The translations under genes were made by a program, and so were the position numbers. From contig CAKRRD010000014.1 in NCBI GenBank assembly GCA_934394815.1, forward strand, positions 1 to 59,220: a DNA stretch of 59,220 nt, given 5' to 3'. This DNA is from an uncultured Acetatifactor sp. GTDB lineage: Bacteria; Bacillota; Clostridia; Lachnospirales; Lachnospiraceae. Positions 10,080 through 28,869 of this stretch are shown in pieces (positions within the stretch are counted from its first letter, which is position 1; each line of letters begins with the position of its first letter). A model generated the notes under the pieces. It worked only from the letters and a program-made list of their open reading frames with translations. It was not told the DNA's origin and made no database searches.

Positions 10080-10116
10080 GACGAAGAGGTCAGGAGAAAT
10101 TCTCCTGACCTTTTTT
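10080..10116 (+). promoter_or_regulatory. Leader A: hexaloop hairpin overlapping an intrinsic terminator
   Basis: GAC-GAAGAG-GTC (10080-10091) can form a hairpin with a 6-nt loop. It overlaps the 5' arm of a perfect 10-bp terminator stem (10087-10096 with 10102-10111) followed by six T. The two structures exclude each other, as in antitermination. The hairpin begins only about 15-20 nt after the predicted transcription start, too little for a metabolite riboswitch. Confidence 0.72.
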
Positions 10117-10144
10117 GCGTATGAGAAAAAGGAGTGCGGATAAT

Positions 10145-10927
10145 ATGAGTCGAAAAAATGGTATCAAAAGAGCAAATGAAAATTATGATCCTGCAAAGGA
10201 GCCGATCCTTGCGGCAGTTGATATCCGCAAGTCCTTTAAGGATCTGGAAGTATTGAAAGGTGTAGATCTGTATGTGAAACAGGGAGAGGTCGTAGTTATC
10301 ATCGGACCTTCCGGTTCCGGAAAAAGTACCATGCTGCGCTGCCTGAACCAGCTGGAGAAGTGCAACAAGGGAGAAATCTATTATAAAGGTGTGCCGGTAT
10401 CGGACAAAGATGTGAAGATCAGTGATCTGAGAGCACATGTGGGAATGGTATTCCAGCACTTTAACCTGTTCCCGCATCTGACGGTAATGGAAAACATCAT
10501 TATGGCTCCCATGCGGGTGAAAAATATGAAGCGTGAGGATGCGGAGAAGCTTGCGGAGGAACTGCTTGCCAAGGTGGGACTGCTGGATAAAAGAGATGAA
10601 TATCCCACCAGACTTTCCGGAGGACAGAAGCAGAGAATTGCTATCGCCAGAGCACTTGCCATGAGCCCGGATGTGATGCTGTTTGATGAACCGACTTCCG
10701 CACTGGATCCGGAGATGGTGGGAGAAGTGCTTCAGGTTATGAAGGATATGGCAGAAACCGGTATGACTATGGTGATTGTGACACATGAGATGGGATTTGC
10801 CAAAGAGGTGGCATCCAGAGTGGTATTTATGGATGGCGGTGGAATCCTGGCACAGGGTACTCCGGAACAGTTGTTTACCGAATGCGATAATGACCGTGTA
10901 AAGAATTTCCTGAACAGTGTTTTGTAG
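10145..10927 (+). CDS. Polar amino acid ABC transporter ATP-binding protein
   Basis: An ATPase subunit of 260 residues in the GlnQ/ArtP class: Walker [11 protein letters not shown]-loop [13 protein letters not shown], signature LSGGQKQR, Walker [13 protein letters not shown], and the switch His in VTHEMGFA. The ATG at 10145 has an AAGGAG site 10 nt upstream. It energises import of an amino acid-like solute. The operon continues with one permease but no solute-binding protein. Two orphan binding proteins under a matching promoter at 28.9-30.8 kb are the best candidates for its missing partner. Confidence 0.95.
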
Positions 10928-10962
10928 AGAACGGACAACTTAAGAGAGGAAAGGTGAAGAAA

Positions 10963-11661
10963 ATGAATAAAACAATAGAATTAATGATCCAATATAAAAA
11001 ACTGTTATGGAGCGGTATTGAGATTACGCTGGTGATTTCGCTGGCCGCAATTTTACTGGGTCTGGTGCTTGGCATTCTGTTGGCGATCATGAAGATCGGC
11101 CGCTTCAAATTATTGAATAAGATCGCATCTGTCTATGTAGAAGTCATGCGAGGTATTCCGGTCATGGTTATTTTGTGTATGTCCTACTATGGAACAGCAC
11201 TTCTGGGAATCCGGTATCCCAGTATTCCTATGTTTGGAGGTGCCTGTACTTCGGATCGTCTGATCGCCGCAGTGATCGGCCTGGCACTGAACGCAGCAGC
11301 CCAGATCTGCGAGATCGTCCGCGGCGGTATCCAGTCCATTGATTTTGGACAGACGGAAGCGGCACTTTCCCTTGGCATGAGCGGAAAGGATACGATGTTC
11401 AAAGTCGTACTTCCCCAGGCAGTCATCAACATTATTCCTTCGCTGGGAAATGACTTTGTTAACATGATCAAGACATCCTCCAATGTTACCATTATCGGTC
11501 TGGCAGATCTGATGTATGTGTCCAATCTGATCCGGGGCCAGAGCTATCGGCCGTTTGCCCCTTTCGTGATTGTCGGTGCCATCTACTTTGTCATGACATA
11601 CAGTATGTCGTTCCTGGTAAAGAGATATGAGAAGCATATTACCAAGAGCAGACAGAGATAG
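10963..11661 (+). CDS. Polar amino acid ABC transporter permease
   Basis: A PAAT-family inner-membrane permease of 232 residues with about five hydrophobic segments. It has the EAA-loop signature (QTEAALSLGMSGKDTMFKVVLPQAV) that docks on the ATPase, and the family segment EVMRGIPVMV. The ATG at 10963 is preferred over an upstream GTG that lies within the ribosome site. It lies 35 bp after the ATPase and 14 bp before the ammonium transporter. A single permease gene implies a homodimeric channel. Confidence 0.94.
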   Translation: MNKTIELMIQYKKLLWSGIEITLVISLAAILLGLVLGILLAIMKIGRFKLLNKIASVYVEVMRGIPVMVILCMSYYGTALLGIRYPSIPMFGGACTSDRLIAAVIGLALNAAAQICEIVRGGIQSIDFGQTEAALSLGMSGKDTMFKVVLPQAVINIIPSLGNDFVNMIKTSSNVTIIGLADLMYVSNLIRGQSYRPFAPFVIVGAIYFVMTYSMSFLVKRYEKHITKSRQR

Positions 11662-11675
11662 GGGAGGTGACAGGA

Positions 11676-13472
11676 ATGAATATTAATGTGGTAAATACCG
11701 TATTCCTGTTTGCTGCCACAGCTATGATCTTTTTCATGCAGGCAGGATTTGCAATGCTGGAGACCGGGTTTACCCGGGCAAAAAATACCGGCAACATCAT
11801 TATGAAGAATGTCATTGATTTTGCCATCGGAAGTGTAGCCTTTACTCTGGTCGGCTTTGGACTGATGTATGGAAACGGACTTCCGGTCATCGGTGATATA
11901 GCGGGAATAGCCAGTGCCAAAAATTATGGAACGGCAATGCTGCCGGAGGGAGTACCGTTTTTCCTGTTCGTCATTTTCCAGACGGTGTTTGCGGGAACCG
12001 CAGCAACCATTGTCTCAGGAGGTATGGCGGAACGTACCAAATTTTCCGCATATTGCATTATTTCACTGGTGCTCAGCCTGTTTGTCTATCCCATAGAAGC
12101 AAGATGGGTATGGAGTGACCAGGGATGGCTGCACATGTTAGGGTTCCATGATTTCTCCGGCGGCACGGTGGTGCATTTGTGTGGCGGCCTCACCGCATTG
12201 CTGGGAGCCTGGTTCTTAGGACCCCGGATCGGAAAATATGATAAGGAAGGAAAACCCAGAGCAATTCAGGGACACAATATTGCAATAGCAGCACTGGGAC
12301 TGTTCATTCTCTGGTTTGGATGGTTTGGATTTACCGGAGGCATGGTACAGAATCTGACAGCGGATTCTGCAGAAGTTCTGGGAAAAGTACTGGTGAATGT
12401 GAACCTTTCTGCAGCCACCTGTGTCTGTACGGTTGTGCTTACGACCTGGATCAAATATGGCAAGTCCGATGTTCCTTTGTCGCTGAATGGCATCCTGATG
12501 GGACTGGTGGTCATCACCCCTGCCGCAGATACAGTATCCGCGGGATCCGCAATGTTAATGGCAGTTCTGGCGGGTATTGTCATGGTGTTCGGTGTGGAAT
12601 TTGTAGATGAAGTACTGAAGATCGATGATCCGGTCGGTGCATTTACGATTCACGGAATCGGTGGTGCCATGGGAACGCTGCTGGTTGGATTTTTCTCAGA
12701 TGGAACCGGAACAGACGGCCACAGGGGACTTTTACTGGGAGGCGGCCTGCGGGTACTGGGAATCCAGTTATTGGGAGTCATTGCCGTCGCAGTCTGGGTT
12801 GGCGGTGTGATGTATCTGGTATTTAAGGCAGTGAAAAAGAGTAACGGACTTCGGGTGGAGCCGGAAGATGAACTCATCGGCCTGGATGAATCCGAACATG
12901 CACTGGGTAGTGCTTATCCGAACTTTACATTGTTGCCGGACGCAACAGAATATTTCTATATCGGTGATAAAGTAAAGCAGATTGAACTGACCTCCAGAGA
13001 CGAGATTCCGGAAGATAAGAAGACAGAGAAACCTGCCGGAACAGAAGAGACAGTTCCGGCAGGAGTGGAGAATAAAAAGGGACTGAAACTGACGCAGGTA
13101 ACTGTCATCTGCAATCAGGCAAAGCTGGAGGCATTAAAGGAAGGTCTGAATCAGATCGGTATTACCGGTATCACCATTACCAATGTCATGGGCTGTGGTG
13201 TGCAGAAGGGACGCAACAAATATTTCCGTGGTATTCCGGTGGGAATGCAGCTACTGCCGAAGGTTCGTGTGGATGTTGTGGTATCGAAAGTGTCGGTGGC
13301 AAGAATTGTTGACGTAACCAGAAAAATACTCTACACTGGAAATATCGGTGACGGCAAGATCTTTGTTTACGATGTAGAAAATGTTATTAAAGTAAGAACC
13401 GGTGAAGAAGGATATGCTGCCCTGCAGTACAGCGACGTCATCTGGGATGAAAAAAATCCGGACAAATCATGA
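11676..13472 (+). CDS. Ammonium transporter fused to a C-terminal PII domain
   Basis: A protein of 598 residues. Residues 1-400 are an Amt channel with the pore histidines in GTVVHLCGG and FTIHGIGGAMG. After a charged linker (about 400-470) comes a PII signal-transduction domain (about 475-590) with LPKVRVDVVV and TGNIGDGKIFVYDVENVIKVRTGEEG. The T-loop reads KYFRGIPVGMQ: the tyrosine equivalent to Tyr51, which is uridylylated in enterobacteria, is replaced. Gating would therefore depend on ADP/ATP/2-oxoglutarate binding, not uridylylation (inference). In this operon it should recover ammonium lost during ureide breakdown. The ATG follows GGGGAGGTGA. Confidence 0.92.
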   Translation: MNINVVNTVFLFAATAMIFFMQAGFAMLETGFTRAKNTGNIIMKNVIDFAIGSVAFTLVGFGLMYGNGLPVIGDIAGIASAKNYGTAMLPEGVPFFLFVIFQTVFAGTAATIVSGGMAERTKFSAYCIISLVLSLFVYPIEARWVWSDQGWLHMLGFHDFSGGTVVHLCGGLTALLGAWFLGPRIGKYDKEGKPRAIQGHNIAIAALGLFILWFGWFGFTGGMVQNLTADSAEVLGKVLVNVNLSAATCVCTVVLTTWIKYGKSDVPLSLNGILMGLVVITPAADTVSAGSAMLMAVLAGIVMVFGVEFVDEVLKIDDPVGAFTIHGIGGAMGTLLVGFFSDGTGTDGHRGLLLGGGLRVLGIQLLGVIAVAVWVGGVMYLVFKAVKKSNGLRVEPEDELIGLDESEHALGSAYPNFTLLPDATEYFYIGDKVKQIELTSRDEIPEDKKTEKPAGTEETVPAGVENKKGLKLTQVTVICNQAKLEALKEGLNQIGITGITITNVMGCGVQKGRNKYFRGIPVGMQLLPKVRVDVVVSKVSVARIVDVTRKILYTGNIGDGKIFVYDVENVIKVRTGEEGYAALQYSDVIWDEKNPDKS

Positions 13473-13506
13473 CGAGAACAGAGTGTAAAGAGGAAGGAAA
13501 AGCAAC

Positions 13507-14244: not shown

Positions 14245-14251
14245 TCATAAT

Positions 14252-14312
14252 TATCGCATTATGATAATAAAATCAAAAATATTATTGACAAATAGAAAAA
14301 AGGTGTTAAACT
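14252..14312 (+). promoter_or_regulatory. Promoter B with TATC-N7-GATA operator
   Basis: The box is TATC-GCATTAT-GATA (14252-14266). It lies inside a larger perfect 8-bp inverted repeat, ATCATAAT-N6-ATTATGAT (14244-14265). TTGACA (14285-14290) follows 18 bp downstream, with a weaker -10 TAAACT (14307-14312) after N16. The poor -10 fits dependence on an activator. Confidence 0.72.
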
Positions 14313-14353
14313 GGAATCAAACAAAAGAAATACAGTACAAATAAGTATTCACA

Positions 14354-14391
14354 GACGATGGAGTCAGGGAGGAATCCCCGGCTCCTTTTTT
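14354..14391 (+). promoter_or_regulatory. Leader B: hexaloop hairpin overlapping an intrinsic terminator
   Basis: GAC-GATGGA-GTC (14354-14365) overlaps the 5' arm of a terminator stem (14360-14369 with 14376-14385, one A-C mismatch, one wobble) followed by six T. It matches leader A in order and spacing. Confidence 0.7.
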
Positions 14392-14457: not shown

Positions 14458-15090
14458 ATGAGAATTTTAGTGATCAATCCAAACAGTGACGAGCATACCG
14501 ATGAGGTAATGAGACAGAAAGCAGCGGCTTTTGTAAAAGGAGAAATCGAAGTGGATGTAAAGCATGCTTCCAAGGCTCCAAAACTGGTGGGCGCCGGATA
14601 TGACCAATATCTGGGAGCGGAGGAAATGGTCCGCTATGTACAGGAAGGGGACGAATATGATGCTTTTATCGTAGCCTGTCATGGAGATCCTAATCTGGAT
14701 ATCCTGAAATCCATTACAGACAAGCCGGTCGTGGGGATTGCACAGGCATCCATGAAGGTGGCATCCATGCTGGGAAATACCTTCGCAGTCATTTCTCCTT
14801 CGCTGGATTCGTATTCCCCTAAGGTGGCGCTGGCAAGAAAATATCATTGTAATGATCTGTTCGTGGGATGCAAGATTGCAAAGAGTAATGAGACCGAAGA
14901 TATTATTGCGGCGGCCAGAGAAGCAAAAGAGGATTATAACGTGGACTGTATTGTCCTGGGATGTGCCAATTATGTACTGGCAGATAGAGAAGCGGAAAAA
15001 GAACTTGGAATTCCGGTGATAGATGGTCTGGCATGTGCATTGTTTATGGCAGAAGGACTGGCAAAATATAAAAAATACAAGGAAGCATAA
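14458..15090 (+). CDS. Asp/Glu/hydantoin racemase family protein
   Basis: A protein of 210 residues, opening with MRILVINPNSDEHT, the family start signature. Both catalytic cysteines are present: ACHGDPNLD (about residue 77) and VLGCANY (about 175). The family includes hydantoin racemase HyuE and allantoin racemase, which interconvert enantiomers of 5-substituted hydantoins so that a stereospecific hydrolase can use both. As first gene of a unit with a cyclic amidohydrolase and an N-carbamoyl-type hydrolase, a hydantoin or ureide racemase role is strongly suggested. The ATG at 14458 follows GGAGAGGAG. An aspartate or glutamate racemase role cannot be excluded. Confidence 0.85.
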   Translation: MRILVINPNSDEHTDEVMRQKAAAFVKGEIEVDVKHASKAPKLVGAGYDQYLGAEEMVRYVQEGDEYDAFIVACHGDPNLDILKSITDKPVVGIAQASMKVASMLGNTFAVISPSLDSYSPKVALARKYHCNDLFVGCKIAKSNETEDIIAAAREAKEDYNVDCIVLGCANYVLADREAEKELGIPVIDGLACALFMAEGLAKYKKYKEA

Positions 15091-15105
15091 AAGTAGGTGA
15101 AAGAG

Positions 15106-16785
15106 ATGAACACAGCAGAGGTTTTGGTAAAATGCCTGGAAAATGAAGGCGTGGAATATATTTTCGGAATCCCCGGAGAAGAAAATCTGGATGTTATGAA
15201 TGCACTGGTAGATTCCAAAATCCGTTTTATTACCGTTCGACATGAACAGGGAGCTGCGTTTATGGCAGATGTATATGGAAGACTTACCGGAAAAGCGGGA
15301 GTCTGTATGTCTACGCTGGGTCCCGGAGCGACCAACCTGGTGACCGGAGTAGCGGATGCCAATTCTGACGGGGCCCCTTTAGTGGCTATTACGGGCCAGG
15401 TAGGCACAGAACGGATGCACCTGACTTCCCATCAGTATCTGGATCTTGTCAATATGTTCTCACCTATCACCAAGAGAAGCAAACAGATCGTCAAACCGGA
15501 TACAGTCAATGAAATTGTCAGAATTGCATTCAAGTATGCGGAAAGTGAAAAACCGGGAGCCTGCCACATTGATCTGCCCTGTGATATTGCCGGAATGAAG
15601 ATTGAAGACGGTCCGGGACAACAACCTTTGCATCATCACCAGGCAAATATCGAAATGGCGGATATTGCAAGTCTGGAAGCGGCGGCCGGAGCCATTTTTC
15701 AGGCCAAACGTCCGATTATGCTGGTCGGTCATTCGGCAGTGCGTAACAGAGCAGCAAGAGCTATTACGGAATTTGCAGAGAATCTGAAGATTCCGGTGAT
15801 CAACACCATGATGGCAAAAGGAGTGCTTTCCTACGAACATCCTTATTCCCTGTGGACCATCGGAATCCCGCAGGAAGATTATGTGGATATTGCATTGGAA
15901 CAGGCAGATCTGGTAATTGCCGTAGGATACGATATTGTGGAGTATGCTCCAAGAAAATGGAATGCCGGTAACCGGCACAGGATCCTGCATATTGATACGA
16001 GAGCCAGCCACATCAATAAGCTGTATCAGCCGGAGATCGAGGTCATCGGTGACATTTCCTATTCCCTGCGCCAGATCGCCCTTCGCTGCAGCCGGACGAT
16101 AGAGCCGAAGTGGGCGCTGGATATCAAAAAGAAGATGGTGGAGGAATATGAAAGCTATAAAGATGACAGGAGCTTTCCGCTGAAACCGCAGAAAATTCTC
16201 TATGATATCCGGAAAGTCCTGGGAAAAGATGACATTCTCGTATCCGATGTCGGTGCCCACAAGATGTGGATTGCCAGACATTATCATTGTTATGAACCGA
16301 ATACCTGTATCATTTCCAATGGATTTGCAACCATGGGAATTGCGGTTCCCGGCGCGATCTCAGCGAAACTGATCAATCCGGAGAAAAAAGTACTGGCGGT
16401 GACAGGAGACGGAGGCTTTATGATGAACTGCCAGGAGTTTGAAACGGCACTCAGAGAGAGAATTCCTTTTGTGACACTGATCTTTAACGACAGCAGCTAT
16501 GGACTGATCAAATGGAAACAGCAGGACCGGTTCGGCAAGAGCTGTTATGTGGACTTTACCAATCCGGATTTTGTAAAATTTGCCGAGAGCATGCATGCCA
16601 TTGGCTACCGGATCGAGTCGCCGGAGGAGTTGATCCCTACATTAAACAAGGCATTCGAACAGAAGGTTCCGGTCATTATTGACTGCCCGGTAGACTATGG
16701 AGAGAATACCAAACTGACACAGCATCTGAAAGATATCTGTGCAAAGCTCAGAGGACAGACTGGATGCGTGAAATCGGAAAAGTGA
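15106..16785 (+). CDS. TPP-dependent enzyme, acetolactate synthase-like
   Basis: A three-domain thiamine-diphosphate enzyme of 559 residues. The N-terminal Pyr domain has FGIPGEENLD and catalytic Glu47 in RHEQGAAFMAD. The C-terminal PP domain has the GDGGFMMN...FND cofactor motif. It most resembles catabolic acetolactate synthases that join two pyruvates. Glyoxylate carboligase, expected in classical allantoin use, lacks this Glu, so that role is unlikely. No regulatory small subunit is present. It may instead act on a 2-oxo acid made by the downstream aminotransferase (inference). The ATG at 15106 is chosen over an upstream GTG inside the ribosome site. Confidence 0.85.
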   Translation: MNTAEVLVKCLENEGVEYIFGIPGEENLDVMNALVDSKIRFITVRHEQGAAFMADVYGRLTGKAGVCMSTLGPGATNLVTGVADANSDGAPLVAITGQVGTERMHLTSHQYLDLVNMFSPITKRSKQIVKPDTVNEIVRIAFKYAESEKPGACHIDLPCDIAGMKIEDGPGQQPLHHHQANIEMADIASLEAAAGAIFQAKRPIMLVGHSAVRNRAARAITEFAENLKIPVINTMMAKGVLSYEHPYSLWTIGIPQEDYVDIALEQADLVIAVGYDIVEYAPRKWNAGNRHRILHIDTRASHINKLYQPEIEVIGDISYSLRQIALRCSRTIEPKWALDIKKKMVEEYESYKDDRSFPLKPQKILYDIRKVLGKDDILVSDVGAHKMWIARHYHCYEPNTCIISNGFATMGIAVPGAISAKLINPEKKVLAVTGDGGFMMNCQEFETALRERIPFVTLIFNDSSYGLIKWKQQDRFGKSCYVDFTNPDFVKFAESMHAIGYRIESPEELIPTLNKAFEQKVPVIIDCPVDYGENTKLTQHLKDICAKLRGQTGCVKSEK

Positions 16786-16792
16786 GGCAGCT

Positions 16793-17200
16793 ATGGCAGT
16801 AGAAAACAGTGTAGTATTTTTACCGGTACGGGATATTGAAAAGACAACGCAGTTTTACCGGGATGTGATCGGATTCCCGGTAGTACAGACACAATCGGAG
16901 GGCATCTGCCGGATCTTTGACACGGGATATGGATACTTCGGATTTTGCCAGTATCCGGATCACAGGCCGCCTTTAAACGGGCCGTTGGGGGTGTGCCTTT
17001 CGCTGAATTGTCATGATATGGAGGATGTAGACCGGAAGTATCGGGAGATTACGGAAAAAGGATGTCAGACGGATTGTGCACCAAAGCGGATGGAAAATTT
17101 CCCGGTTTACGGTTTTTTCATGAAAGACCCGGATGCATATAAGCTGGAATTCCAATATGTTCTCCTGCCGGAACAACAGCTTATGGGAGGAAGGAAGTGA
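16793..17200 (+). CDS. VOC (glyoxalase/bleomycin-resistance fold) protein
   Basis: A protein of 135 residues with the paired beta-alpha-beta-beta-beta modules of the VOC superfamily: FLPVRDIEKTTQFYRDVIGFPVV at the start and DPDAYKLEFQ, with a metal-type Glu, at the end. Members isomerise, open or cleave small metabolites using a divalent metal. Eight bp separate it from the TPP gene and four from the next. It may be an epimerase or lyase for the ureide skeleton. No specific reaction can be assigned. Confidence 0.8.
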   Translation: MAVENSVVFLPVRDIEKTTQFYRDVIGFPVVQTQSEGICRIFDTGYGYFGFCQYPDHRPPLNGPLGVCLSLNCHDMEDVDRKYREITEKGCQTDCAPKRMENFPVYGFFMKDPDAYKLEFQYVLLPEQQLMGGRK

Positions 17201-17204
17201 GCAT

Positions 17205-18383
17205 ATGGAGAAAGGGAAAACATTCAGAGAACGCATGCTTGCCATAGCCCGGATCGGAAGACAGGAAGACGGCGGGATCAGCAGAGTGTTTGGTAGTGAT
17301 TATTATAAGGAAGCCGCCGGTAAAATCCTTCGGGAAATGCAGGAGCTTGGAATGCGTGCTTACATTGACCCGGTGGGTAATGTACATGGAATTCAGGAAT
17401 GCGGAAAGAAAAATGCAAAAGAGATTCTCATAGCCTCCCATCTGGATACGGTGAAAGAAGGCGGTGTATACGATGGCCTGCTGGGACTGATGGCGGGAAT
17501 CGAATGTGTACGCAGATTACAGGAGGAAAACCGAGAACTGCCGTATGATCTTCATGTGATTGCCACCAATGGAGAGGAAGGCAATGAACTGGGAGGAACC
17601 TTCGGAAGCAGATGCCTGATGGGCATGGCACCGACAGAGGATGCAGCCTATCTGGAACTGGCCGGAAAATACGGATTTACCAGAGAGGATCTCATAAACA
17701 GTATTTATGACACGTCCCGTTGTAAAGCGTATCTGGAACTGCATATCGAGCAGGGAAAAACGTTGGACGAGGAGAACATCCAGATCGGCGCAGTGACGGG
17801 GATCGTGGGATTACAGCGGTATAAGATAAAGATTCATGGCATCAGCAATCATGCGGGAACCACAATGATGGAATACCGGCAGGATGCGCTGGTGGAACTG
17901 GCACAGCTCATCGCGGATACGGACCGCTGGACCAGAGAAATCGGTAACCGCCTGGTATGCACCTTCAGCAGAATCCAGGTATCGCCCAATGTATTTGCGG
18001 TAATCAATAATGAGGCGGAAGTAATTCTGGAGTGTCGGAACCAGAACGTGGATACCATGGCGGAATTGATACAAAAGGTGCAACAGCGTATCGGGGAACT
18101 GCCGGATGCCAGCATGGAACAGATCGTCAGAAAAGAGCCGGTCACCTGTGCTCCCGATATTGTGGATGCGGTGGAGGCTTCCGCCGGAGAACTTGGATGC
18201 ACATGCATACGGATGCCGAGCGGAGCGACTCACGACGGTAACTGTTTTGCAACGAAGATGCCCATCGGCATGATCTTTGTTCCCAGTGTCGGAGGACTGA
18301 GCCACTGCAAGGAAGAATATACTCCTTGGGAAGATGTGGACCGGGGAGTGGAGGTATTGTATCAGACATTATTGAAAATATAG
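17205..18383 (+). CDS. N-carbamoyl-L-amino acid / allantoate amidohydrolase family
   Basis: An M20-type Zn/Mn hydrolase of 392 residues in the HyuC/AllC group. Signatures are SHLDTVKEGGVYDG (metal His and Asp), NGEEGNELGGTFGSR, LELHIEQG, NHAGTT in the dimer interface, SGATHDGNCF and a C-terminal VGGLSHCKEEYT. Relatives remove the carbamoyl group from N-carbamoyl amino acids, or act on allantoate or ureidoglycolate, releasing ammonia and carbon dioxide. Its place directly before the cyclic amidohydrolase gives the classic hydantoin order: ring opening, then decarbamoylation. The ATG at 17205 has a GGAGGAAGG site. Confidence 0.88.
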   Translation: MEKGKTFRERMLAIARIGRQEDGGISRVFGSDYYKEAAGKILREMQELGMRAYIDPVGNVHGIQECGKKNAKEILIASHLDTVKEGGVYDGLLGLMAGIECVRRLQEENRELPYDLHVIATNGEEGNELGGTFGSRCLMGMAPTEDAAYLELAGKYGFTREDLINSIYDTSRCKAYLELHIEQGKTLDEENIQIGAVTGIVGLQRYKIKIHGISNHAGTTMMEYRQDALVELAQLIADTDRWTREIGNRLVCTFSRIQVSPNVFAVINNEAEVILECRNQNVDTMAELIQKVQQRIGELPDASMEQIVRKEPVTCAPDIVDAVEASAGELGCTCIRMPSGATHDGNCFATKMPIGMIFVPSVGGLSHCKEEYTPWEDVDRGVEVLYQTLLKI

Positions 18384-18406
18384 ACAGAAGGACAGGAGGA
18401 AACATT

Positions 18407-19798
18407 ATGTTGGATTTAATTTTGAAAAATGCAAATGTTTTTGTGGGAGATTCTTTCAGCAAGGTAAGTGTCGGTGTAAAGGATGGCAGGATCGTGACCA
18501 TCTGTGAAGATGCTTATATGCCGGAAGCAAAAGAGGTAATGGATTTGACCGGACAGTATCTGATTCCGGGCACCATTGATACGCATATGCATGTACGGGA
18601 TCCCGGACATGTGGAAAGAGGCAACTTCTATACGGAGACCATGTGTGCGGCAGCAGGCGGCGTAACTACCATTATGGAGCATCCCATCAGTGTTCCCCCT
18701 CAGTACAATGTGGAAATTCTGGAGAACCGTATCAAACGTGCAGAAGACCAGTGCGTGGTAGATTTCTGCTTCTATGGAGCGGCAGGAGCAGAGTTCCCGG
18801 AGGAGATCACGAAGCTGGCAGCAGACGGCCGGATCGTGGCATTCAAATCCTTCCTGCATCAGGCACCCCAGGGCAGATATGACGAATTTAAAGGACTGAC
18901 CATGGCCGATGACGCAGAACTGTTAGTAGGCATGACAGAGATTGCCAAGACAGGGCTGCTGTGTGCGTTCCATTCCGAGAATAATGACCTGATCAATTAT
19001 TACAGCAAGAAATTCCAGGAGGAAGGCCGGGTCAGCGGAAGAGACCATTCCCTGTCCAGACCGGTATTCACGGAAGTACAGTCGGTAGAAAGAGTACTGC
19101 GCTTTGCCAAAGAGACCGGAGCAAGAGTAGAGATTGCCCATGTATCTACGCCCCAGGCCATGGAACTGATCGTGAAAGCAAGACAGGAAGGTCAGGATGT
19201 CTATATTGAAACCTGTCCTCATTACCTGTTCCTGGATGAGGATGACCAGGCGAAATTCGGACCGTTTTCCAAGTGCAATCCGCCTTTGAGAAAGAAGGAA
19301 CTGCAGGAAGGGTTATGGAAATTTATCAACGATGGCAGCGTGGACTATATCGGAAGTGATCACAGTCCGTTCCTGCTGGAGGAAAAGACCAGAGGACTGG
19401 ATAATATCTTCAAGGCAAATGCAGGCTTCCCCGGTGCGGATCTCCGCCTGCCGCTGATGCTGGATGCTGTGACCAAGGGTAAGGTAAAACTGGAAAGGGT
19501 CATTGAACTGTTATGCACCAATCCTGCCAAAATCTTTAATATTTATCCTCAGAAGGGTGAGATCCGCGTAGGTGCGGATGCCGATTTTGTATCCTTTAAT
19601 CTGGACAACGAGATGATCGTAGACAAGAATAAGTGCTATTCCCATGCAAAAGAGATTGCGATTCCTTATGACGGATGGAAGCTTCATTGCCAGCTGACCA
19701 GTACTGTTGTAAGAGGAAGAGTTGTCATGAAGGATGGCATAGTAGACGAGTCAGCCAAAGCATATGGCAGGCTGGTAACACCTAATAAGAGAAATTAG
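18407..19798 (+). CDS. Cyclic amidohydrolase (hydantoinase/allantoinase/dihydropyrimidinase family), copy 1
   Basis: An amidohydrolase-superfamily enzyme of 463 residues with a binuclear metal site: DTHMHVRD (HxH), FKSF (carboxylated Lys), HSEN, EIAHVST (His) and GSDHSP (Asp). It opens five- or six-membered cyclic amides such as hydantoins, allantoin or dihydropyrimidines to N-carbamoyl acids. Sequence alone does not separate hydantoinase from allantoinase here; the Arg-Asp-Pro after HxH is closer to allantoinase-like members. The ATG at 18407 follows AGGAGG. A second, diverged copy lies at 25.4 kb in another unit under the same control. Confidence 0.88.
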   Translation: MLDLILKNANVFVGDSFSKVSVGVKDGRIVTICEDAYMPEAKEVMDLTGQYLIPGTIDTHMHVRDPGHVERGNFYTETMCAAAGGVTTIMEHPISVPPQYNVEILENRIKRAEDQCVVDFCFYGAAGAEFPEEITKLAADGRIVAFKSFLHQAPQGRYDEFKGLTMADDAELLVGMTEIAKTGLLCAFHSENNDLINYYSKKFQEEGRVSGRDHSLSRPVFTEVQSVERVLRFAKETGARVEIAHVSTPQAMELIVKARQEGQDVYIETCPHYLFLDEDDQAKFGPFSKCNPPLRKKELQEGLWKFINDGSVDYIGSDHSPFLLEEKTRGLDNIFKANAGFPGADLRLPLMLDAVTKGKVKLERVIELLCTNPAKIFNIYPQKGEIRVGADADFVSFNLDNEMIVDKNKCYSHAKEIAIPYDGWKLHCQLTSTVVRGRVVMKDGIVDESAKAYGRLVTPNKRN

Positions 19799-19844
19799 GA
19801 ATCCGGCAGAGCAGGAGCAAATAGGGAAAAGAGGTCAGCAGCGG

Positions 19845-21122
19845 ATGAGAGCAACGGATGAAACAACGGAAAAACTGAGAGATGTGCGGGACGAACTTCT
19901 GAAAAAATATCAGGAATATAAGGACAGGGGGCTGTCCCTGAATATCAGCAGAGGACTGCCCTGTAAGGAACAGCTGGATCTGAACAGGGAAATGTTCCAT
20001 ATTCTGGATGAGACAAACTGTTATGCGGAAGATGGAACAGATACCAGAAATTATGGAGTCATGTATGGCCTTCCGGAATGTATCCATCTGTTTTCGGAAC
20101 TGCTTCATATTCCGGAGAAGAACATTGTGTTAGGCGGGGAATCCAGCCTGAATCTGATGTATGACCAGTTTATGAGATATTATGCCTTCGGTACGCTGGG
20201 CAGTGAACCGTGGTGCAGGCAGGGACATCTGAAATGGTTATGTCCGGTTCCGGGATATGACTGTCATTTTAATCTGACAGAAGCTCTGGGATTTGAGATG
20301 ATCAATATTCCCATGAGCAAAGAGGGACCGGACATGGATCTGATCGAAAAACTGGTGGCAGAGGATCCTTCGATCAAGGGAATCTGGTGTGTGCCCCAGT
20401 ATACCAACCCGCAGGGGTACTGCTACAGTGATGAGACGGTGGAACGTCTGGCAAAAATGAAAACAGCGGCTAAGGATTTCCGCATTTTCTGGGATAATGC
20501 TTATGCGGTCCATCATTTATACAAGGAAAATATTGTAAAAGATATTTTCGAGGCGGCAAAGCCTTATGGAAATGAGAATCGTATCCTGTATTTCTTTTCA
20601 ACGGCCAAGATCACTTTCCCCGGTTCCGGTGTCTGCCTGATGGCCACCGGAGACGAAGGCATCGCGGAAGTGAAGGAATTATTAAAGCTGCAGATTTTCA
20701 GCCATGACAAGCTGAACCAGCTGCGTCATGTAAAATATCTCAGATCTCCGGAACACATCAAGGAGCATATGAAAGATATTGCAGAGATTCTTCGCCCTCG
20801 TTTCGATCTGGTGGACGGGCTGTTGTCGGAGGGGATTTTATATGAAGATCTCTTGAACTGGTTTAAGCCGGATGGAGGATATTTTATCACGGTGGACAGC
20901 TATCCCGGCTGTGCGGCAGAGATATTGCGTAAGATGGAAGAAGCAGGAGTCAGGGTGGCGACGGCCGGAGCAACCTATCCGTATCACAAAGATCCCTGCG
21001 ACACCAATATCCGGCTGGCACCTACTTATCCGCCGGTGGAAGAACTGACCACAGCGATAAAGTTATTCTGCATTGTGGCGAATCTTGTGGGAATTGAGAA
21101 AATACTGGAGGAGAGATCGTGA
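19845..21122 (+). CDS. Type Ic aspartate aminotransferase-like enzyme
   Basis: A PLP enzyme of 425 residues in the Ic aminotransferase group (Pfam Asp_aminotransf type), recognised from the LNISRGLPCKEQLDL opening, DTRNYG, VPQYTNPQG, IFWDNAYAVHH (Asp/Tyr contacts) and FSTAKITFPGSGV (Schiff-base Lys). Characterised relatives act on aspartate or tyrosine. Here it probably moves the amino group off the amino acid freed by the carbamoylase, giving a 2-oxo acid. Its stop overlaps the start of the next gene as GTGA, which implies translational coupling with the dehydrogenase. Confidence 0.87.
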   Translation: MRATDETTEKLRDVRDELLKKYQEYKDRGLSLNISRGLPCKEQLDLNREMFHILDETNCYAEDGTDTRNYGVMYGLPECIHLFSELLHIPEKNIVLGGESSLNLMYDQFMRYYAFGTLGSEPWCRQGHLKWLCPVPGYDCHFNLTEALGFEMINIPMSKEGPDMDLIEKLVAEDPSIKGIWCVPQYTNPQGYCYSDETVERLAKMKTAAKDFRIFWDNAYAVHHLYKENIVKDIFEAAKPYGNENRILYFFSTAKITFPGSGVCLMATGDEGIAEVKELLKLQIFSHDKLNQLRHVKYLRSPEHIKEHMKDIAEILRPRFDLVDGLLSEGILYEDLLNWFKPDGGYFITVDSYPGCAAEILRKMEEAGVRVATAGATYPYHKDPCDTNIRLAPTYPPVEELTTAIKLFCIVANLVGIEKILEERS

Positions 21123-22078
21123 AATATCTGTGCAATGAACTCTACAGACACTTGCTTCCCGGATCTTTAGATGACAGAATTCTGTATTTGTCCAATGAGG
21201 AATGCGAAAATTGCGGCAGAGGATATGATCTGTCAGGAATCGAAGGCATGATCGGACAGCCTTTCTATGTGAATAAACCATTTTTGGACCGCATGCCGAA
21301 GTTAAAATGGGTGCAGATCACGGGAGCGGGCTATGACAGGGCAGATGTGGAGGAACTGAAAAAAAGAGAGATTATCCTGACCAATACGCGGGGAGTTATG
21401 AGCATTTCCATTGCAGAAGATGTTTTTGCCAAGATGCTTTTCTTCTCCAGGGAAATTCGCCATATGGAGGATGACAGCAGAGACAGACACTGGGATATGT
21501 TTGGACAGGATCAGTGGATGTGCAGCTGTTATACGGATCTGTATGGCAAGACACTGGGGATTCTGGGCTATGGATCCATTGGATCGGAGATCGCGAAAAG
21601 GGCAGCAGCCTTTGGCATGAAAATCCATGTTTTTTCCAGACACCCGGTCACAGATCCGCTTGTGACAAGATGCTTTGCAGGACAGGAGAGTCTATGGGAG
21701 TTCTACGGAAGCTGTGACTTCCTGGTTCTGGCACTGCCGTTGACAGCCGATACGCACCATATGATAGACCGTAAGGCATTCCTTGCCATGAAAGAATCTG
21801 CAGTGCTGATCAATGTGGCCAGAGGCCCCATTGTAGATACACAGGCACTGCTTTGGGCATTGGAGGAAGACCGGATCCGTGGGGCGGCCCTGGATGTTTT
21901 TGAACAGGAGCCGCTGCCGGAGGACAGTGTGCTATGGCACCATCCGAAGCTGTTTTTGACCCCTCATAAAGCCGGGATGGGAGACAGCTGGAAACGGTTT
22001 ATCGGCGAACTGATCGTGCGCAATATTGAACATTTTGAATTGCAGGAAGCACTGGAAAACAGAATAATTATCGCATAG
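21119..22078 (+). CDS. D-isomer-specific 2-hydroxyacid dehydrogenase
   Basis: An NAD(P)-dependent dehydrogenase of 319 residues: GYGSIG nucleotide motif in the Rossmann domain, catalytic Arg in INVARGPIVDT, Glu in EQEPLP and His in TPHKAG. It reduces a 2-oxo acid to a D-2-hydroxy acid or the reverse. The GTG start overlaps the aminotransferase stop, so the two proteins are made together and probably act in series. The last codons (Ile-Ile-Ala-stop) are also part of the TATC-N7-GATA box of the next promoter, an unusual overlap of coding and operator sequence. Confidence 0.9.
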   Translation: MKYLCNELYRHLLPGSLDDRILYLSNEECENCGRGYDLSGIEGMIGQPFYVNKPFLDRMPKLKWVQITGAGYDRADVEELKKREIILTNTRGVMSISIAEDVFAKMLFFSREIRHMEDDSRDRHWDMFGQDQWMCSCYTDLYGKTLGILGYGSIGSEIAKRAAAFGMKIHVFSRHPVTDPLVTRCFAGQESLWEFYGSCDFLVLALPLTADTHHMIDRKAFLAMKESAVLINVARGPIVDTQALLWALEEDRIRGAALDVFEQEPLPEDSVLWHHPKLFLTPHKAGMGDSWKRFIGELIVRNIEHFELQEALENRIIIA

Positions 22079-22149
22079 TGATAGAAATAAAAATAATTAA
22101 AACAAATATAGATAAAAGCATTGACAACCTGATGACTTTGCTATATGAT
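22069..22149 (+). promoter_or_regulatory. Promoter C with TATC-N7-GATA operator inside the preceding stop region
   Basis: The box TATC-GCATAGT-GATA (22069-22083) spans the stop of the dehydrogenase. The promoter is TTGACA (22121-22126), N17, TATGAT (22144-22149). The gap from box to -35 is 37 bp, about two helical turns more than at A, B and D, so the box stays on the same DNA face (about -81 versus -61). Confidence 0.68.
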
Positions 22150-22171: not shown

Positions 22172-22209
22172 GAACAAGGGCGTTCATCATAAGAGATGAA
22201 CGTCCTTTT
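22172..22209 (+). promoter_or_regulatory. Leader C: hexaloop hairpin overlapping an intrinsic terminator
   Basis: GAAC-AAGGGC-GTTC (22172-22185) overlaps an 11-bp terminator stem (22178-22188 with 22195-22205, one wobble) and a short T tract. A further 9-bp pairing (AAACACAAA 22161-22169 with TTTGTGTTT 22207-22215) could extend the structure. Confidence 0.68.
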
Positions 22210-24624: not shown

Positions 24625-24647
24625 TCGAGGGAAAGAGAGGAAACAAG

Positions 24648-25391: not shown

Positions 25392-25407
25392 AGGAGGCAA
25401 AAAGCGA

Positions 25408-26802
25408 ATGGAACTACTGATCAGCGGTGGACAGGTTCTTTTGGATGGAGGGCTTCAGAAATGCGATATAGGAATTGAAAAGGGACGGATTGTGTCCCTG
25501 CAAAAATCCGGGCAGGCGAAGCCGGACCAATATGATCGGGTCATTGATGCTGCCGGAAAGTATGTGCTACCGGGAAGCATTGATACACATGTACATATAC
25601 GTGCACCGGGAGGCGATCACAGAGAGACTTTCCTTACAGGTACCATGGCGGCAGCAGCCGGTGGAACAACCATGATCATGGAGCAGCCAATCTGTAATCC
25701 GACACCCTACAACAGAGAGAATCTGGAGTACAGGAATTCTTTTGCCGGCAAAGAGGCAGTGGTAGATTATGGCTTTTACGGGGCAGCGGGATGTGAATAT
25801 CCTGAAAAAATAGACGAACTGAAAGATTCAGGGATTCTGGCGTATAAAACATTTCTCCAGGGACCGGTACCCGGAAGAGAAGCAGAATTTACCAATCTGT
25901 TTATGGATGATGATGCAAAACTGTTTCGTGGAATGATGGATGTGGCAAAGACAGGAAAAGCATTGATGATTCATGCGGAGAATCATAAGGTGATCGGCGT
26001 GCTGGAACAGGAACTCCGCCGTCAGGGCAGGACGACGGGAATAGCCCATGTGAGGTCAAGACCTGATTTCACAGAAACAGAGACAATTCGAAAGATTATT
26101 TCTTTTGCGGAAGTCACAGGAACCAGGTTGATCTTTGCCCATGTCTCTACAGCAGAAGCAATGGAGGATATCCGCAGGGCAAAACTTTCCGGCATGGAGG
26201 TATATTGTGAGACCTGTGTGCACTATCTGACATTGACGCAGAAAGCACTGGAACAGTTCGGACCTTTTGCAAAGTGTAATCCGCCGGTGAGAGATCCGGA
26301 GAATCAGAAAGGACTGTGGCAGTTTTGTAATGACGGTTATACGGTTGACGCTATCGGAAGTGATCATTCTCCGTTTCTATATCATGAAAAAGCGGATTTC
26401 GCAGAGGACATTTTCAAGGCACCGCCGGGACTTGTGGGAATAGACCTACGGGTTCCCCTGATGCTGGATGCCGTACTCCGGGGCAAAAGCACCTTGGAGA
26501 ACATGGTGGAACTGCTGAGTCTGCGGCCGGCGAAAATGCTGGGAATCCAGGACAGAAAGGGCAGGATTGCCCTTGGACAGGATGCAGATCTTTTGATTTT
26601 TGACAAAAGGGGAAAGACTCTGGTGGATCGGAATAAAAGCTATTCCAGATCAGCGGAAAGCCAGATGGTATATCAGGGACAGACTCTGAAGGGAAGCATT
26701 GACAAGACATTGGTCCGCGGAAAAATCGTTGCAGAGTGCGGAAAAGTAAATCCGGAAAATGCCGGATACGGACAATGGATCCGACCGGAAAATGCGAGGT
26801 AG
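25408..26802 (+). CDS. Cyclic amidohydrolase (hydantoinase/allantoinase family), copy 2
   Basis: An enzyme of 464 residues with the full metal set: DTHVHIRAPG (HxH), AYKTF (carboxylated Lys), HAEN, FAHVST and GSDHSP. It shares many blocks with copy 1 (FYGAAG, SRPxFTE, KCNPP, LPLMLDAV-like) but is clearly diverged, so the two probably have different ring substrates or stereopreference. It has an AGGAGG-type ribosome site. It sits between the importer and the enolase-superfamily gene, so its substrate is plausibly what that importer carries. Confidence 0.88.
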   Translation: MELLISGGQVLLDGGLQKCDIGIEKGRIVSLQKSGQAKPDQYDRVIDAAGKYVLPGSIDTHVHIRAPGGDHRETFLTGTMAAAAGGTTMIMEQPICNPTPYNRENLEYRNSFAGKEAVVDYGFYGAAGCEYPEKIDELKDSGILAYKTFLQGPVPGREAEFTNLFMDDDAKLFRGMMDVAKTGKALMIHAENHKVIGVLEQELRRQGRTTGIAHVRSRPDFTETETIRKIISFAEVTGTRLIFAHVSTAEAMEDIRRAKLSGMEVYCETCVHYLTLTQKALEQFGPFAKCNPPVRDPENQKGLWQFCNDGYTVDAIGSDHSPFLYHEKADFAEDIFKAPPGLVGIDLRVPLMLDAVLRGKSTLENMVELLSLRPAKMLGIQDRKGRIALGQDADLLIFDKRGKTLVDRNKSYSRSAESQMVYQGQTLKGSIDKTLVRGKIVAECGKVNPENAGYGQWIRPENAR

Positions 26803-26808
26803 AAGAGC

Positions 26809-27984
26809 ATGAAAATTACGAAGGTGGAGATTAAGAAATTAAATATCAGTGATGTCTGGACCCCGGTCATCTGCAGAATATATACGGATGAAGGAATCTA
26901 TGGTGATGGCGAAGCCGCATTGGCATTCGGCGTCGGAGCCACGGGAGTCTACGGAATCCTGCAGGATTACGCAAAACAGATCATTGGAATGGATCCGATG
27001 TGTAATGAACTGATCTGGGACAAACTGTATCGATATACCTTCTGGGGGCAGGCGGGAGGTGCTGTAATATGGGGAGCAATCTCAGCTATCGATATTGCCC
27101 TGTGGGATATTAAGGGCAAAAAGCTACAGGTTCCCCTGCATGTGCTCCTGGGAGGAAAAAGACGTGACAGTGTGCGGTGTTATGCGAGCCAGCTTCAGAT
27201 GGGATGGGAGCCGGTATTTCATGCGCTGGCCACGACACAGGAATATGTAGATGCTGCGAAGAAGGTTGTTGCAGAAGGTTATGACGCACTTAAGGTAAAT
27301 TTTTTTGTATATGACCGGGATGGACGCAGATTTGCAAAAGAGGAAATGAAAGGTGTGTTGTCTGCCTGTTATATGGATCTTTTAGAGGAGAGAATTGCAG
27401 CGGTGCGGGAAGCAGTGGGACCGGGAATCGATATTATTATGGAAAACCATGCCAATATGGATGCGGTTTCTGCAGTGCAGGTAGCCACAATGGCAGAAAA
27501 GTATGGAATCTTCTTTTTTGAAGAGCCGGCAACACCAAATGCGGCCATGAATAAGGTGATTAGTGAGAAAATACATATTCCAATCGCTCAGGGAGAGCGG
27601 ATTTTTACCCGATGGCAGTTTGCTCCCTACTTTGAAAATCGCTCTGTTCAGATTATCCAGCCGGATATCGGAAACTGCGGAGGACTTACGGAGGCAAAAA
27701 AGATCTGTGATATGGCAAATGTCTATGATGTGTCTGTGCAGGCGCATGTCTGTGCGTCTCCGCTATCCACGGCAGTGGCACTGCACCTGGAGAGTGTAAT
27801 TCCCAATTTTATTATTCACGAGCACCACAGAAACTGTCTGTATCCTCATAATCAGAAATTGTGTACGATGGATTATCAGCCGGTGAATGGTAGAATGATG
27901 ATTCCTGATGGCGTGGGAATCGGCTGCGAATTTACGGAAGAAACCATGCATATGGAAAACAGCCAGACGACTGTGGTACAGTAA
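26809..27984 (+). CDS. Mandelate racemase/muconate lactonizing (enolase superfamily) enzyme
   Basis: A protein of 391 residues with an N-terminal capping domain and a beta/alpha barrel. IMENHANMD, FFFEEPATP and PIAQGERIF carry the acidic Mg ligands; the His in VQAHVCASPLSTA is the likely general base. The layout resembles the sugar-acid dehydratase branch (galactonate/mannonate type). Superfamily members abstract a proton next to a carboxylate, giving racemisation or dehydration. In this locus it may epimerise an N-carbamoyl or amino acid product, or dehydrate a hydroxy acid; neither is proven. It starts 6 bp after the amidohydrolase stop. Confidence 0.85.
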   Translation: MKITKVEIKKLNISDVWTPVICRIYTDEGIYGDGEAALAFGVGATGVYGILQDYAKQIIGMDPMCNELIWDKLYRYTFWGQAGGAVIWGAISAIDIALWDIKGKKLQVPLHVLLGGKRRDSVRCYASQLQMGWEPVFHALATTQEYVDAAKKVVAEGYDALKVNFFVYDRDGRRFAKEEMKGVLSACYMDLLEERIAAVREAVGPGIDIIMENHANMDAVSAVQVATMAEKYGIFFFEEPATPNAAMNKVISEKIHIPIAQGERIFTRWQFAPYFENRSVQIIQPDIGNCGGLTEAKKICDMANVYDVSVQAHVCASPLSTAVALHLESVIPNFIIHEHHRNCLYPHNQKLCTMDYQPVNGRMMIPDGVGIGCEFTEETMHMENSQTTVVQ

Positions 27985-28015
27985 TCTGACTGCTCTCCGG
28001 AAAAATAAGAATCCG

Positions 28016-28621
28016 TTAGTCTGCCTTTTGGGAAAGATAGTTGCGGAAGTCTGACAGGATCTGATCCAGATCACTGGAAAAAATATCAAGACCGACACCA
28101 TAGAAGTCAGGGAGAGCAATATTGCGCTCTTTGGCTTCTTTTTCAATCTCTTCGATAAAAATGCCTTTCCCGGGAATAAGCTCGCGGTCAATTTCCTTGG
28201 GACGTCCGCCGCCGTTTTTGTAGAAATTGGTATAGTTGACACCGCAGGTAGGGGAACCGTCACAGCCCACAATGCTGATGATTTTATAACCGACCATCTG
28301 ATAGTTTTCTATGTAATCGACAATGAACCGGGCCTGCTCCCTGCAGAACCGCCGGTAGCCGGCGCTGTCAAATACGTTTTTGCCGCCCCAGTAGCGGTTG
28401 CTTCCGAAGTGGAGCATTTCCGTACAGGGAAGCTGTACGACACCCAGATCGTATTTCTGGATCGTGTCTATGATCCCGGAATGAACGCCGCTGTAACGGG
28501 CACGCTCCAATACCTTACTGTTGGAGTTGAGAAGACAGTGACAGACAAAAATGATCTTTTTGCTGCGTTCATCCTCCAGCATTTCCATGGATCCTGAATA
28601 TGTAATACCTTCTTCTTTCAT
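28016..28621 (-). CDS. TudS-related (DUF523-like) putative desulfidase
   Basis: A protein of 201 residues read on the reverse strand. The conserved cysteines of the TudS/DUF523 group are present: VCHCLLNSNS near the N-terminus, QLPCTE and VGCDGSPTCG. TudS binds a [4Fe-4S] cluster through three cysteines and removes sulfur from thiouracil; this branch is a predicted desulfidase of unknown substrate. The start at 28621 has an AAAGGAG site; upstream ATGs lie in the terminator hairpin and are rejected. The gene diverges from the binding-protein pair across a shared operator and has its own hexaloop/terminator leader, so it belongs to the ureide regulon. Confidence 0.82.
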   Translation of the reverse strand: MKEEGITYSGSMEMLEDERSKKIIFVCHCLLNSNSKVLERARYSGVHSGIIDTIQKYDLGVVQLPCTEMLHFGSNRYWGGKNVFDSAGYRRFCREQARFIVDYIENYQMVGYKIISIVGCDGSPTCGVNYTNFYKNGGGRPKEIDRELIPGKGIFIEEIEKEAKERNIALPDFYGVGLDIFSSDLDQILSDFRNYLSQKAD

Positions 28622-28649
28622 AACGACTCCTTTCTGTCCTGACAGGGAC

Positions 28650-28686
28650 AAAAAAGGCGCATCCTCTTTGGAATGCGCCATTGCAT
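28650..28686 (-). promoter_or_regulatory. Leader E (reverse strand): hexaloop hairpin overlapping an intrinsic terminator
   Basis: On the reverse strand, ATGC-AATGGC-GCAT (28686 to 28673) overlaps the 5' arm of the terminator GGCGCAT-N10-ATGCGCC (28679 to 28656), followed by six T (28655 to 28650). It matches the four forward leaders in design. Confidence 0.7.
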
Positions 28687-28705
28687 ACATATTGTTATTG
28701 CATAT

Positions 28706-28733
28706 ATTTTACCATTAAAAAAACGGAAGTCAA
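28706..28733 (-). promoter_or_regulatory. Promoter of the desulfidase gene
   Basis: Reverse strand TTGACT (28733 to 28728), N16, TAAAAT (28711 to 28706). The shared box at 28741-28755 lies 7 bp upstream of this -35. Confidence 0.65.
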
Positions 28734-28740
28734 TGGTATT

Positions 28741-28801
28741 TACCACAGAATGATAAAAAATATTAAAAAGTTATTGACAAATAGTATTTGCAGGGTATAA
28801 T
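28741..28801 (+). promoter_or_regulatory. Promoter D with shared operator TACC-N7-GATA
   Basis: The box TACC-ACAGAAT-GATA (28741-28755) differs from the others by one base in the left half. TTGACA (28774-28779), N16, TATAAT (28796-28801) follows 18 bp downstream. Read in reverse, the same box serves the divergent desulfidase promoter. Confidence 0.7.
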
Positions 28802-28829
28802 GAGTTTATATTCAATCGGATACAGAACA

Positions 28830-28869
28830 GACAAAGAAGTCACAGCACAGAAAGTGCGTGGCTTTTTTT
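28830..28869 (+). promoter_or_regulatory. Leader D: hexaloop hairpin overlapping an intrinsic terminator
   Basis: GAC-AAAGAA-GTC (28830-28841) overlaps a terminator stem (28837-28848 with 28854-28864, one bulged A) followed by seven T (28863-28869). About 70 nt remain before the start of the first binding-protein gene. Confidence 0.7.

Follow-up and report, generated by a model that had tools for sequence, protein, structure and literature searches.

The window analyzed here is a 59,220-nucleotide stretch of DNA from an uncultured Acetatifactor sp. of the Lachnospiraceae (contig CAKRRD010000014.1, positions 1 to 59,220, forward strand). Between 10 and 31 kb of the window, five transcription units begin with a promoter, a short gap, a stem carrying a six-nucleotide loop (hexaloop) and an overlapping intrinsic terminator, all of which can be read directly. 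These leaders, designated L1 to L5, are very probably transcription attenuators of a nitrogen regulon governed by an ANTAR protein. What was observed by computation is the leader anatomy, its conservation in relatives, covariation of the stem, the target genes, a tendency of leaders and ANTAR genes to occur in the same genomes and, in most leaders, too little space for a second hairpin.

All five window leaders have a 3-4 bp stem closed by a C-G pair and a 6-nt loop (L1, GAAGAG; L2, GATGGA; L3, AAGGGC; L4, AAAGAA; L5, AATGGC). Loop position 1 is a purine, position 2 is A and position 4 is G in 5/5, and position 1 is A in three of them. In every leader the 3' arm of the hexaloop sits inside the 5' arm of the terminator. 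In each of the five minimum-energy folds the terminator is formed and the hexaloop is not (−17.9 to −22.4 kcal/mol; z −3.2 to −7.5). The two folds are thus mutually exclusive, and the hexaloop needs some stabilizer to prevail. An earlier analysis made without database searches (the sequence-only reading) had reported the five hexaloops, their purine-1/A2/G4 rule and the exclusion of one fold by the other; the rule is indeed present in each leader, with C-G closing throughout, and the overlap and the folds bear out the exclusion.

The L1 promoter is at 10030-10057 on the + strand (−35 TTGACA, 10030-10035; −10 TATAAT, 10052-10057), followed by the hexaloop hairpin TGAC-GAAGAG-GTCA at 10079-10092 (stem 10079-10082/10089-10092) and the terminator that overlaps it at 10083-10115 (minimum energy −22.4 kcal/mol, z −7.5). 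For L2 (+), the promoter at 14285-14312 (TTGACA, 14285-14290; TAAACT, 14307-14312) precedes the hairpin GAC-GATGGA-GTC at 14354-14365 (stem 14354-14356/14363-14365) and the terminator at 14360-14385 (whole leader −19.9, z −3.2). For L3 (+), the corresponding elements are the promoter at 22121-22149 (TTGACA, 22121-22126; TATGAT, 22144-22149), the hairpin GAAC-AAGGGC-GTTC at 22172-22185 (stem 22172-22175/22182-22185) and the terminator at 22176-22207 (−20.0, z −6.5). L4 (+) has its promoter at 28774-28801 (TTGACA, 28774-28779; TATAAT, 28796-28801), the hairpin GAC-AAAGAA-GTC at 28830-28841 (stem 28830-28832/28839-28841) and a terminator with a one-nucleotide bulge at 28833-28868 (−18.3, z −6.3). 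L5 lies on the − strand, with its promoter at 28706-28733 (TTGACT, 28733-28728; TAAAAT, 28711-28706), the hairpin TGC-AATGGC-GCA at 28674-28685 (stem 28685-28683/28676-28674) and the terminator at 28656-28679 (whole leader −17.9, z −3.2). Among 11 terminator calls in the window (two terminators being counted on both strands), four carried the motif and all four were leaders (L1, L2, L3 and L5); the other seven lacked it. The first caller missed L4 due to its bulged stem and was replaced by an RNAfold-based caller in later counts. A scan of the window with Rfam gave no matches at gathering score.

The same element recurs in Lachnospiraceae before glnA and before genes for type III glutamine synthetase (GSIII), P-II, ammonium transporters and glutamine amidotransferases. 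In a gene-anchored test, loci were picked by gene, any loop sequence was allowed and hexaloop stems of at least 4 bp were counted. The GSIII set comprised 30 loci, these being the best matches fetched. An upstream terminator was found at 25 of them, a hexaloop hairpin of any sequence straddling the terminator 5' arm at 23, and a C-G-closed hexaloop of the form R-A-N-G (purine, A, any base, G) at 22. Counted by hairpin, 24/27 of the straddling hexaloops at GSIII loci were C-G-closed R-A-N-G. Values for glnA loci were 20/30 (terminator), 14/30 (straddling hexaloop) and 11/30 (C-G-closed R-A-N-G). Straddling hexaloops numbered 138 at 722 terminators (some double-counted), and 54 were C-G-closed R-A-N-G; all except ten of these belonged to leaders of the window, of Kineothrix sp. 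MSJ-39 (also Lachnospiraceae), or of glnA or GSIII genes. The remaining ten were located elsewhere within GSIII loci, beside genes left unannotated. Loss of A2, G4 or the stem overlap in orthologous leaders had been named beforehand as grounds for abandoning the idea, and the opposite was found. The loop consensus across leaders is a purine at position 1, A at 2, G at 4 and mostly a purine at 5, with C-G closing.

Covariation was assessed in 39 leaders, with the loop, the closing pair and the terminator as selection criteria. Stem pairs 2-4 were formed in 115/117 cases, compared with 93.2 ± 2.7 in shuffles within gene classes, where 0/2000 reached as high a value. Sliding the arms by one base reduced the number to 57 and 86. 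For alignment A1, which contains 19 of 21 leaders (L019 and L025 were omitted for their odd terminators), pairing was 94.7% versus 80.6%. Note that A1 and the search model, R1, were built on partly by-eye leaders, so that A1 pairing and R1 pass counts lean towards the motif; the gene-anchored count and the 39-leader covariation are less circular tests. Two of the GSIII loci, L115 and L116, have two full hexaloop-terminator units in tandem before a single gene, possibly for tighter control. At L138 (genome G002), two hexaloop hairpins lie about 90 nt apart before an ammonium transporter gene, the first on an apparent terminator.

Pfam ANTAR matches were present in 175/200 genomes of the family, with one match in 170 genomes and two in 5. 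In MSJ-39 the sole ANTAR match is directly downstream of glnA, whose own leader shows the hairpin GAAC-AAAGGC-GTTC on a terminator. Of 30 fetched glnA loci, 29 have an ANTAR gene next to glnA; at the exception, L016, the contig stops 86 bases past glnA. Model R1 was run on 20 genomes of the family with an ANTAR match and 20 without. Candidates numbered 411 to 1917 per genome, and the model scored the best 150 of them (the best 43 in the class-wide scan described below), so absences are weak evidence. R1 hits numbered 58 in genomes with ANTAR and 16 in genomes without, of which 71/74 were examined (55 and 16, respectively); three weak hits in ANTAR-bearing genomes (G001, G008 and G014) were left out, with no effect on genome counts. 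A fixed test was then applied, calling for a stem of at least 3 bp, C-G closing, A2, G4, a terminator of −10 kcal/mol or better and a T run. Leaders passing this test numbered 41 with ANTAR versus 3 without, and were found in 18/20 versus 2/20 genomes (p = 5e-7). G4 is built into the test and hence occurs in 44/44 passing leaders; loop position 1 was A in 34 and G in 10.

Class-wide, across 148 genomes, raw R1 hits were found in 27/73 genomes with an ANTAR match versus 2/75 without (p = 5e-8). Ten of the 28 class-wide loci have a weak terminator fold or none as cut (above −10 kcal/mol), namely L145, L151, L153, L154, L156, L157, L158, L166, L167 and L168, and these include the two loci whose genomes have no ANTAR match. 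The class-wide figures therefore rest on raw model hits. Within the family, L066 (genome G018, no ANTAR match) retains a terminator and the loop GAAGGT before GSIII on a stem of 2 bp, which looks like decay following loss of the regulator.

These comparisons bear on the idea that the hexaloops arise by chance, as look-alikes formed where an A-rich stretch, the complement of the U tract, precedes a terminator 5' arm. A-rich bases before terminators are common, and the five window leaders were originally chosen by eye. Chance is nevertheless extremely improbable, being contradicted by the covariation of stem 5' arms with the terminator arm, by the near absence of passing hits from genomes without ANTAR (3 versus 41), and by the terminator tally, in which 54/138 straddling hexaloops are C-G-closed R-A-N-G and all but ten lie at window, MSJ-39, glnA or GSIII leaders.

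The glnA-linked ANTAR protein is called NitR here. In Clostridium saccharobutylicum, an ANTAR-type antiterminator of that name is encoded beside glnA and is a presumed regulator of nitrogen assimilation; our literature search found no paper on it. Thirty NitR proteins were aligned. The ANTAR family (PF03861) scores 60 bits in NitR against a cut-off of 27.3, and a Pfam scan of the MSJ-39 protein found the ANTAR domain and no receiver family. A structural model built from nine sequences (predicted local distance difference test score, pLDDT, 89.7) has a receiver-like domain, a long helix and three ANTAR helices, and its leading Foldseek matches are Rv1626, EutV and EutV-RNA. The phospho-acceptor Asp of EutV is replaced by Gly or Ser in 28/28 NitR proteins covering the site, which makes control by a partner likely. 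Glutamine synthetase is a candidate for that partner because of gene linkage alone. EutV residue M172 is retained in 30/30.

A further possibility is that another trans-acting factor, or a small ligand, reads the same hexaloop and that ANTAR genes co-occur through a shared nitrogen lifestyle. Several EutV RNA contacts are gone in NitR, genome G116 has a leader and no ANTAR match, and type I glnA is likewise absent from the five genomes with no ANTAR match in a subset of 60, so that other factors may have been lost together. We consider this explanation improbable. The element matches the eut consensus (below), ANTAR is linked to glnA, which carries the same leader, and genome G021 keeps both ANTAR and a GSIII leader in spite of having no type I glnA. 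In addition, dual leaders with the same loops occur in three genomes (G294, G267 and G319) whose ANTAR proteins are EutV-like. A hairpin of 12-16 nt is also small for a ligand aptamer.

According to PMC3369931, an ANTAR target has a pair of hexaloop hairpins, each with A1 and G4, and the second of the pair overlaps a terminator; in the Enterococcus faecalis eut leaders, a linker of 5-12 nt separates the two. The EutV dimer touches a single hexaloop at any moment, and G4 provides the base-specific contact, yet antitermination by EutV requires both hexaloops, and the authors ask why (PMC8934654). They suppose that single-hexaloop sites occur where polymerase imposes no time limit (PMC8934654).

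The space available for a first hairpin was measured in 70 of 83 distinct leaders, those with a predictable promoter, from predicted transcription starts. The median distance from predicted start to hexaloop stem was 4.5 nt, and 53/70 leaders had fewer than 17 nt upstream of the stem, which is less than a 12-nt hairpin and a 5-nt linker would need together. An upstream hexaloop with a purine at position 1 and G4 was found in 5/70, two of which are the whole tandem units L115 and L116. The window leaders are at the long end of the range (13 to 35 nt), and none of the five carries a G4 hexaloop ahead of the main hairpin. A C-G-closed hexaloop in that position is seen in L2 alone: AGUAC-AAAUAA-GUAUU at 14334-14349 (+) resembles a first hairpin (P1) in having A1 and A2, has U at position 4, and is separated from the hexaloop stem by a 4-nt linker; isolated 14330-14370 folds as two hairpins. 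The sequence-only reading had seen one hairpin per leader, which fails for L2, whose extra loop nevertheless has no G4. Its two doubts about ANTAR, incomplete A1 and the single hairpin, prove characteristic of the group (among 44 passing leaders, A in 34 and G in 10; no room for a second hairpin in 53/70).

Among the 23 leaders with at least 13 nt before the stem, a C-G-closed upstream hexaloop occurs in five (L2, L016, L047 with loop AATGGA, and the tandem units L115 and L116), compared with 1.1 in shuffles. A minority of longer leaders may thus keep the first hairpin or a remnant of it. In other Clostridia, GSIII leaders of G294, G267 and G319 have two hexaloops, the first C-G-closed (AATGGT, AACGAT or GACGAT) and about 20 nt before the second, so the canonical two-hexaloop arrangement exists within the same class. 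Of the 28 class-wide loci, 11 have an upstream hexaloop with a purine at position 1 and G4 when called loosely; only L149, L155 and L163 are also C-G closed, have A2 and are well placed.

It could be argued from these data that a second hexaloop was missed, due to a non-canonical loop or an earlier start, and that the leaders are ordinary dual-hairpin ANTAR targets. Predicted rather than mapped starts, the P1-like AAAUAA loop four bases upstream in L2, the excess of upstream hexaloops in longer leaders (5/23 versus 1.1) and the dual leaders of G294, G267 and G319 are all consistent with this, and we rate it as unlikely on the basis of the short median distance (4.5 nt, fewer than 17 nt in 53/70) and of the scarcity of upstream purine-1/G4 hexaloops (5/70, two being whole tandem units). 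The leaders appear to act like ANTAR targets yet mostly carry one hairpin instead of two, and so constitute a single-hexaloop variant.

We lean modestly towards the following account of this variant. In Lachnospiraceae, one hexaloop at the extreme 5' end of the transcript may suffice, being captured by a non-phosphorylated ANTAR protein with changed RNA contacts (R168 to Q, R175 to G or S) as it leaves polymerase; the first hairpin would then be dispensable, surviving as a remnant in some longer leaders, with glutamine synthetase perhaps serving as sensor. The ANTAR proteins of the two-hexaloop genomes G294, G267 and G319 keep D54, Y164 and R168, and those of G265 and G292, which have one-hexaloop glnA leaders, have F164, Q168 and G175. 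G263 breaks the pattern, since R168 is kept and no second loop was seen. Judged post hoc from these alignments, the changes at R168 and R175 may be tied to single-hexaloop leaders.

For an ANTAR-controlled attenuator we infer binding, antitermination and signal as follows. Polymerase would start at the strong promoter and soon make the C-G-closed hexaloop (purine 1, A2, G4, mostly purine 5). If left unbound, the 3' half of the hexaloop would pair onward to form the intrinsic terminator, and transcription would stop. Active NitR would bind the hexaloop, probably via G4, and thereby sequester the terminator 5' arm, allowing read-through into genes whose products take up and degrade organic nitrogen. 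The signal would be nitrogen or glutamine status, perhaps conveyed by glutamine synthetase or another partner.

Several points weigh against ANTAR control of these leaders. The evidence is computational, with binding and termination deduced from it, and the ANTAR gene of the window's own organism is assumed from relatives. The two hairpins needed by EutV, as described in PMC3369931 and PMC8934654, are not both present in most leaders, and RNA-contact residues of EutV are changed in NitR (R168 to Q in 30/30, R175 to G or S in 30/30, Y164 to H in 29/30). The L2 and L4 stems, at 3 bp, are under the 4-bp cut of the gene-anchored count. Just 11/30 glnA loci pass the strict caller, rising to 17 after additions by eye or script (15 leaders were chosen by eye; L027 and L029 were added by script), and the L015 leader has its third stem pair mismatched. 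ANTAR-bearing genomes G007 and G010 yielded no R1 hit; in G007, however, the gene-anchored count found a leader before GSIII (L129). Good GSIII leaders are also present in G116 and G139, the two genomes without an ANTAR match that contain passing leaders. The glnA contig of G139 ends before the expected ANTAR site, and its ANTAR gene may therefore be missing from the assembly.

Support for the proposal of the sequence-only reading, an RNA-binding antiterminator acting in trans for which an ANTAR protein was the leading candidate, comes from ANTAR co-occurrence, from the glnA-ANTAR linkage with the same leader at glnA, from stem covariation, from the two-hexaloop version in three related Clostridia, and from the nitrogen-related targets. 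To survey these targets, 20 of 43 proteins encoded downstream of passing leaders were scanned. Besides glnA and GSIII, they include class II glutamine amidotransferases (GATase_2, read as glutamate synthase), P-II, ammonium transporters, asparagine synthase, GATase-phosphoribosyltransferases (amidophosphoribosyltransferase-like), a carbon-nitrogen hydrolase, ornithine cyclodeaminase, a periplasmic binding protein and an ATP-binding cassette (ABC) ATPase. A LuxR-type regulator, a pyridine-nucleotide oxidoreductase, a DUF1989 protein and an IS200-type transposase are less plainly linked to nitrogen, and one of the 20 proteins had no match.

Genes behind the window leaders fit a nitrogen regulon as well, with transporters and P-II behind L1 and with racemase, amidohydrolase and solute uptake functions behind L2 to L4. 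The L1 operon (10145-13472, +) encodes an ABC ATPase, a permease and an ammonium transporter fused to P-II, the last two functions being combined in a single protein at 11667-13472 (+). The L2 operon (14458-22078, +) encodes an Asp/Glu/hydantoin racemase, a thiamine pyrophosphate (TPP) enzyme, a glyoxalase-like protein, an M20 peptidase, an amidohydrolase, an aminotransferase and a 2-hydroxyacid dehydrogenase. Behind L3 (22246-27984, +) are an SBP_bac_3 binding protein, two permeases, an ABC ATPase, an amidohydrolase and an MR/MLE enolase-superfamily enzyme, and behind L4 (28939-30821, +) are two SBP_bac_3 binding proteins. The L5 gene (28016-28621, −) bears a weak, sub-cut-off resemblance to 2-thiouracil desulfurase (PF04463, E 0.0066) and sits near amidohydrolases and the hydantoin-racemase-like gene. 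One window amidohydrolase has an 88% match in MSJ-39, the single relative returned by a genome scan with one window protein. MSJ-39 keeps the block M20-amidohydrolase-aminotransferase-dehydrogenase at 61-88% identity to the window, with a different front gene, and its copy has the leader AAGC-AAAGGC-GCTT (L004:208). Elsewhere in the window, an M20 peptidase gene at 7594-8781 (+) is interrupted by an in-frame TAG stop (8101-8103), which leaves two open reading frames, 7594-8103 and 8158-8781, that share one frame. No R1 hit was obtained at carA, located at 51071-55508 (+) together with the next open reading frame of 1066 amino acids, presumably carB.

Our literature search, with coverage mostly of journals outside subscription, found no description of this Lachnospiraceae regulon. 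Why EutV needs both hexaloops becomes open to direct testing with a large natural set of one-hexaloop leaders that has two-loop relatives in the same class. The set further indicates a nitrogen regulon in a family to which many gut bacteria belong (ANTAR in 175/200 genomes), and searches using a two-hairpin model would overlook such targets.

Among the closest known counterparts are the eut leaders of E. faecalis, regulated by EutV/EutW. Both systems have a C-G-closed hexaloop with A2, G4 and a purine at position 5 on the terminator 5' arm (PMC3369931, PMC8934654), several leaders per regulon, and an ANTAR protein in the genome (here, in relatives). The 13-nt eut consensus AGCAANGRRGCUY (PMC3369931) shares A2, G4, purine 5 and C-G closing with the present element, as well as the A1 found in 34 of its 44 passing leaders. 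The leaders described here differ in having mostly one hexaloop, near the predicted 5' end, with A or G at position 1, in a NitR with a pseudo-receiver and several RNA contacts lost, and in controlling nitrogen assimilation rather than ethanolamine genes. ANTAR proteins with pseudo-receivers exist, as exemplified by AmiR (PMC3369936), and the AmiR/AmiC system of Pseudomonas aeruginosa resembles the present one in its non-phosphorylated ANTAR protein. AmiR also has His at the position of EutV Tyr164, as read from our alignment. The amiE leader differs in being described with both P1 and P2. ANTAR targets have been linked to nitrogen genes before (PMC3369931), and a cyanobacterial glnA leader motif is known from PMC2864571, in passages that do not mention ANTAR. 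Also comparable are the putative ANTAR nitrogen regulons of Desulfotomaculum and Pelobacter, with hexaloop leaders before glutamate synthase, P-II and ammonium transporter genes; these differ in having been found by a two-hairpin model, which is blind to single-hexaloop leaders (PMC3369931).

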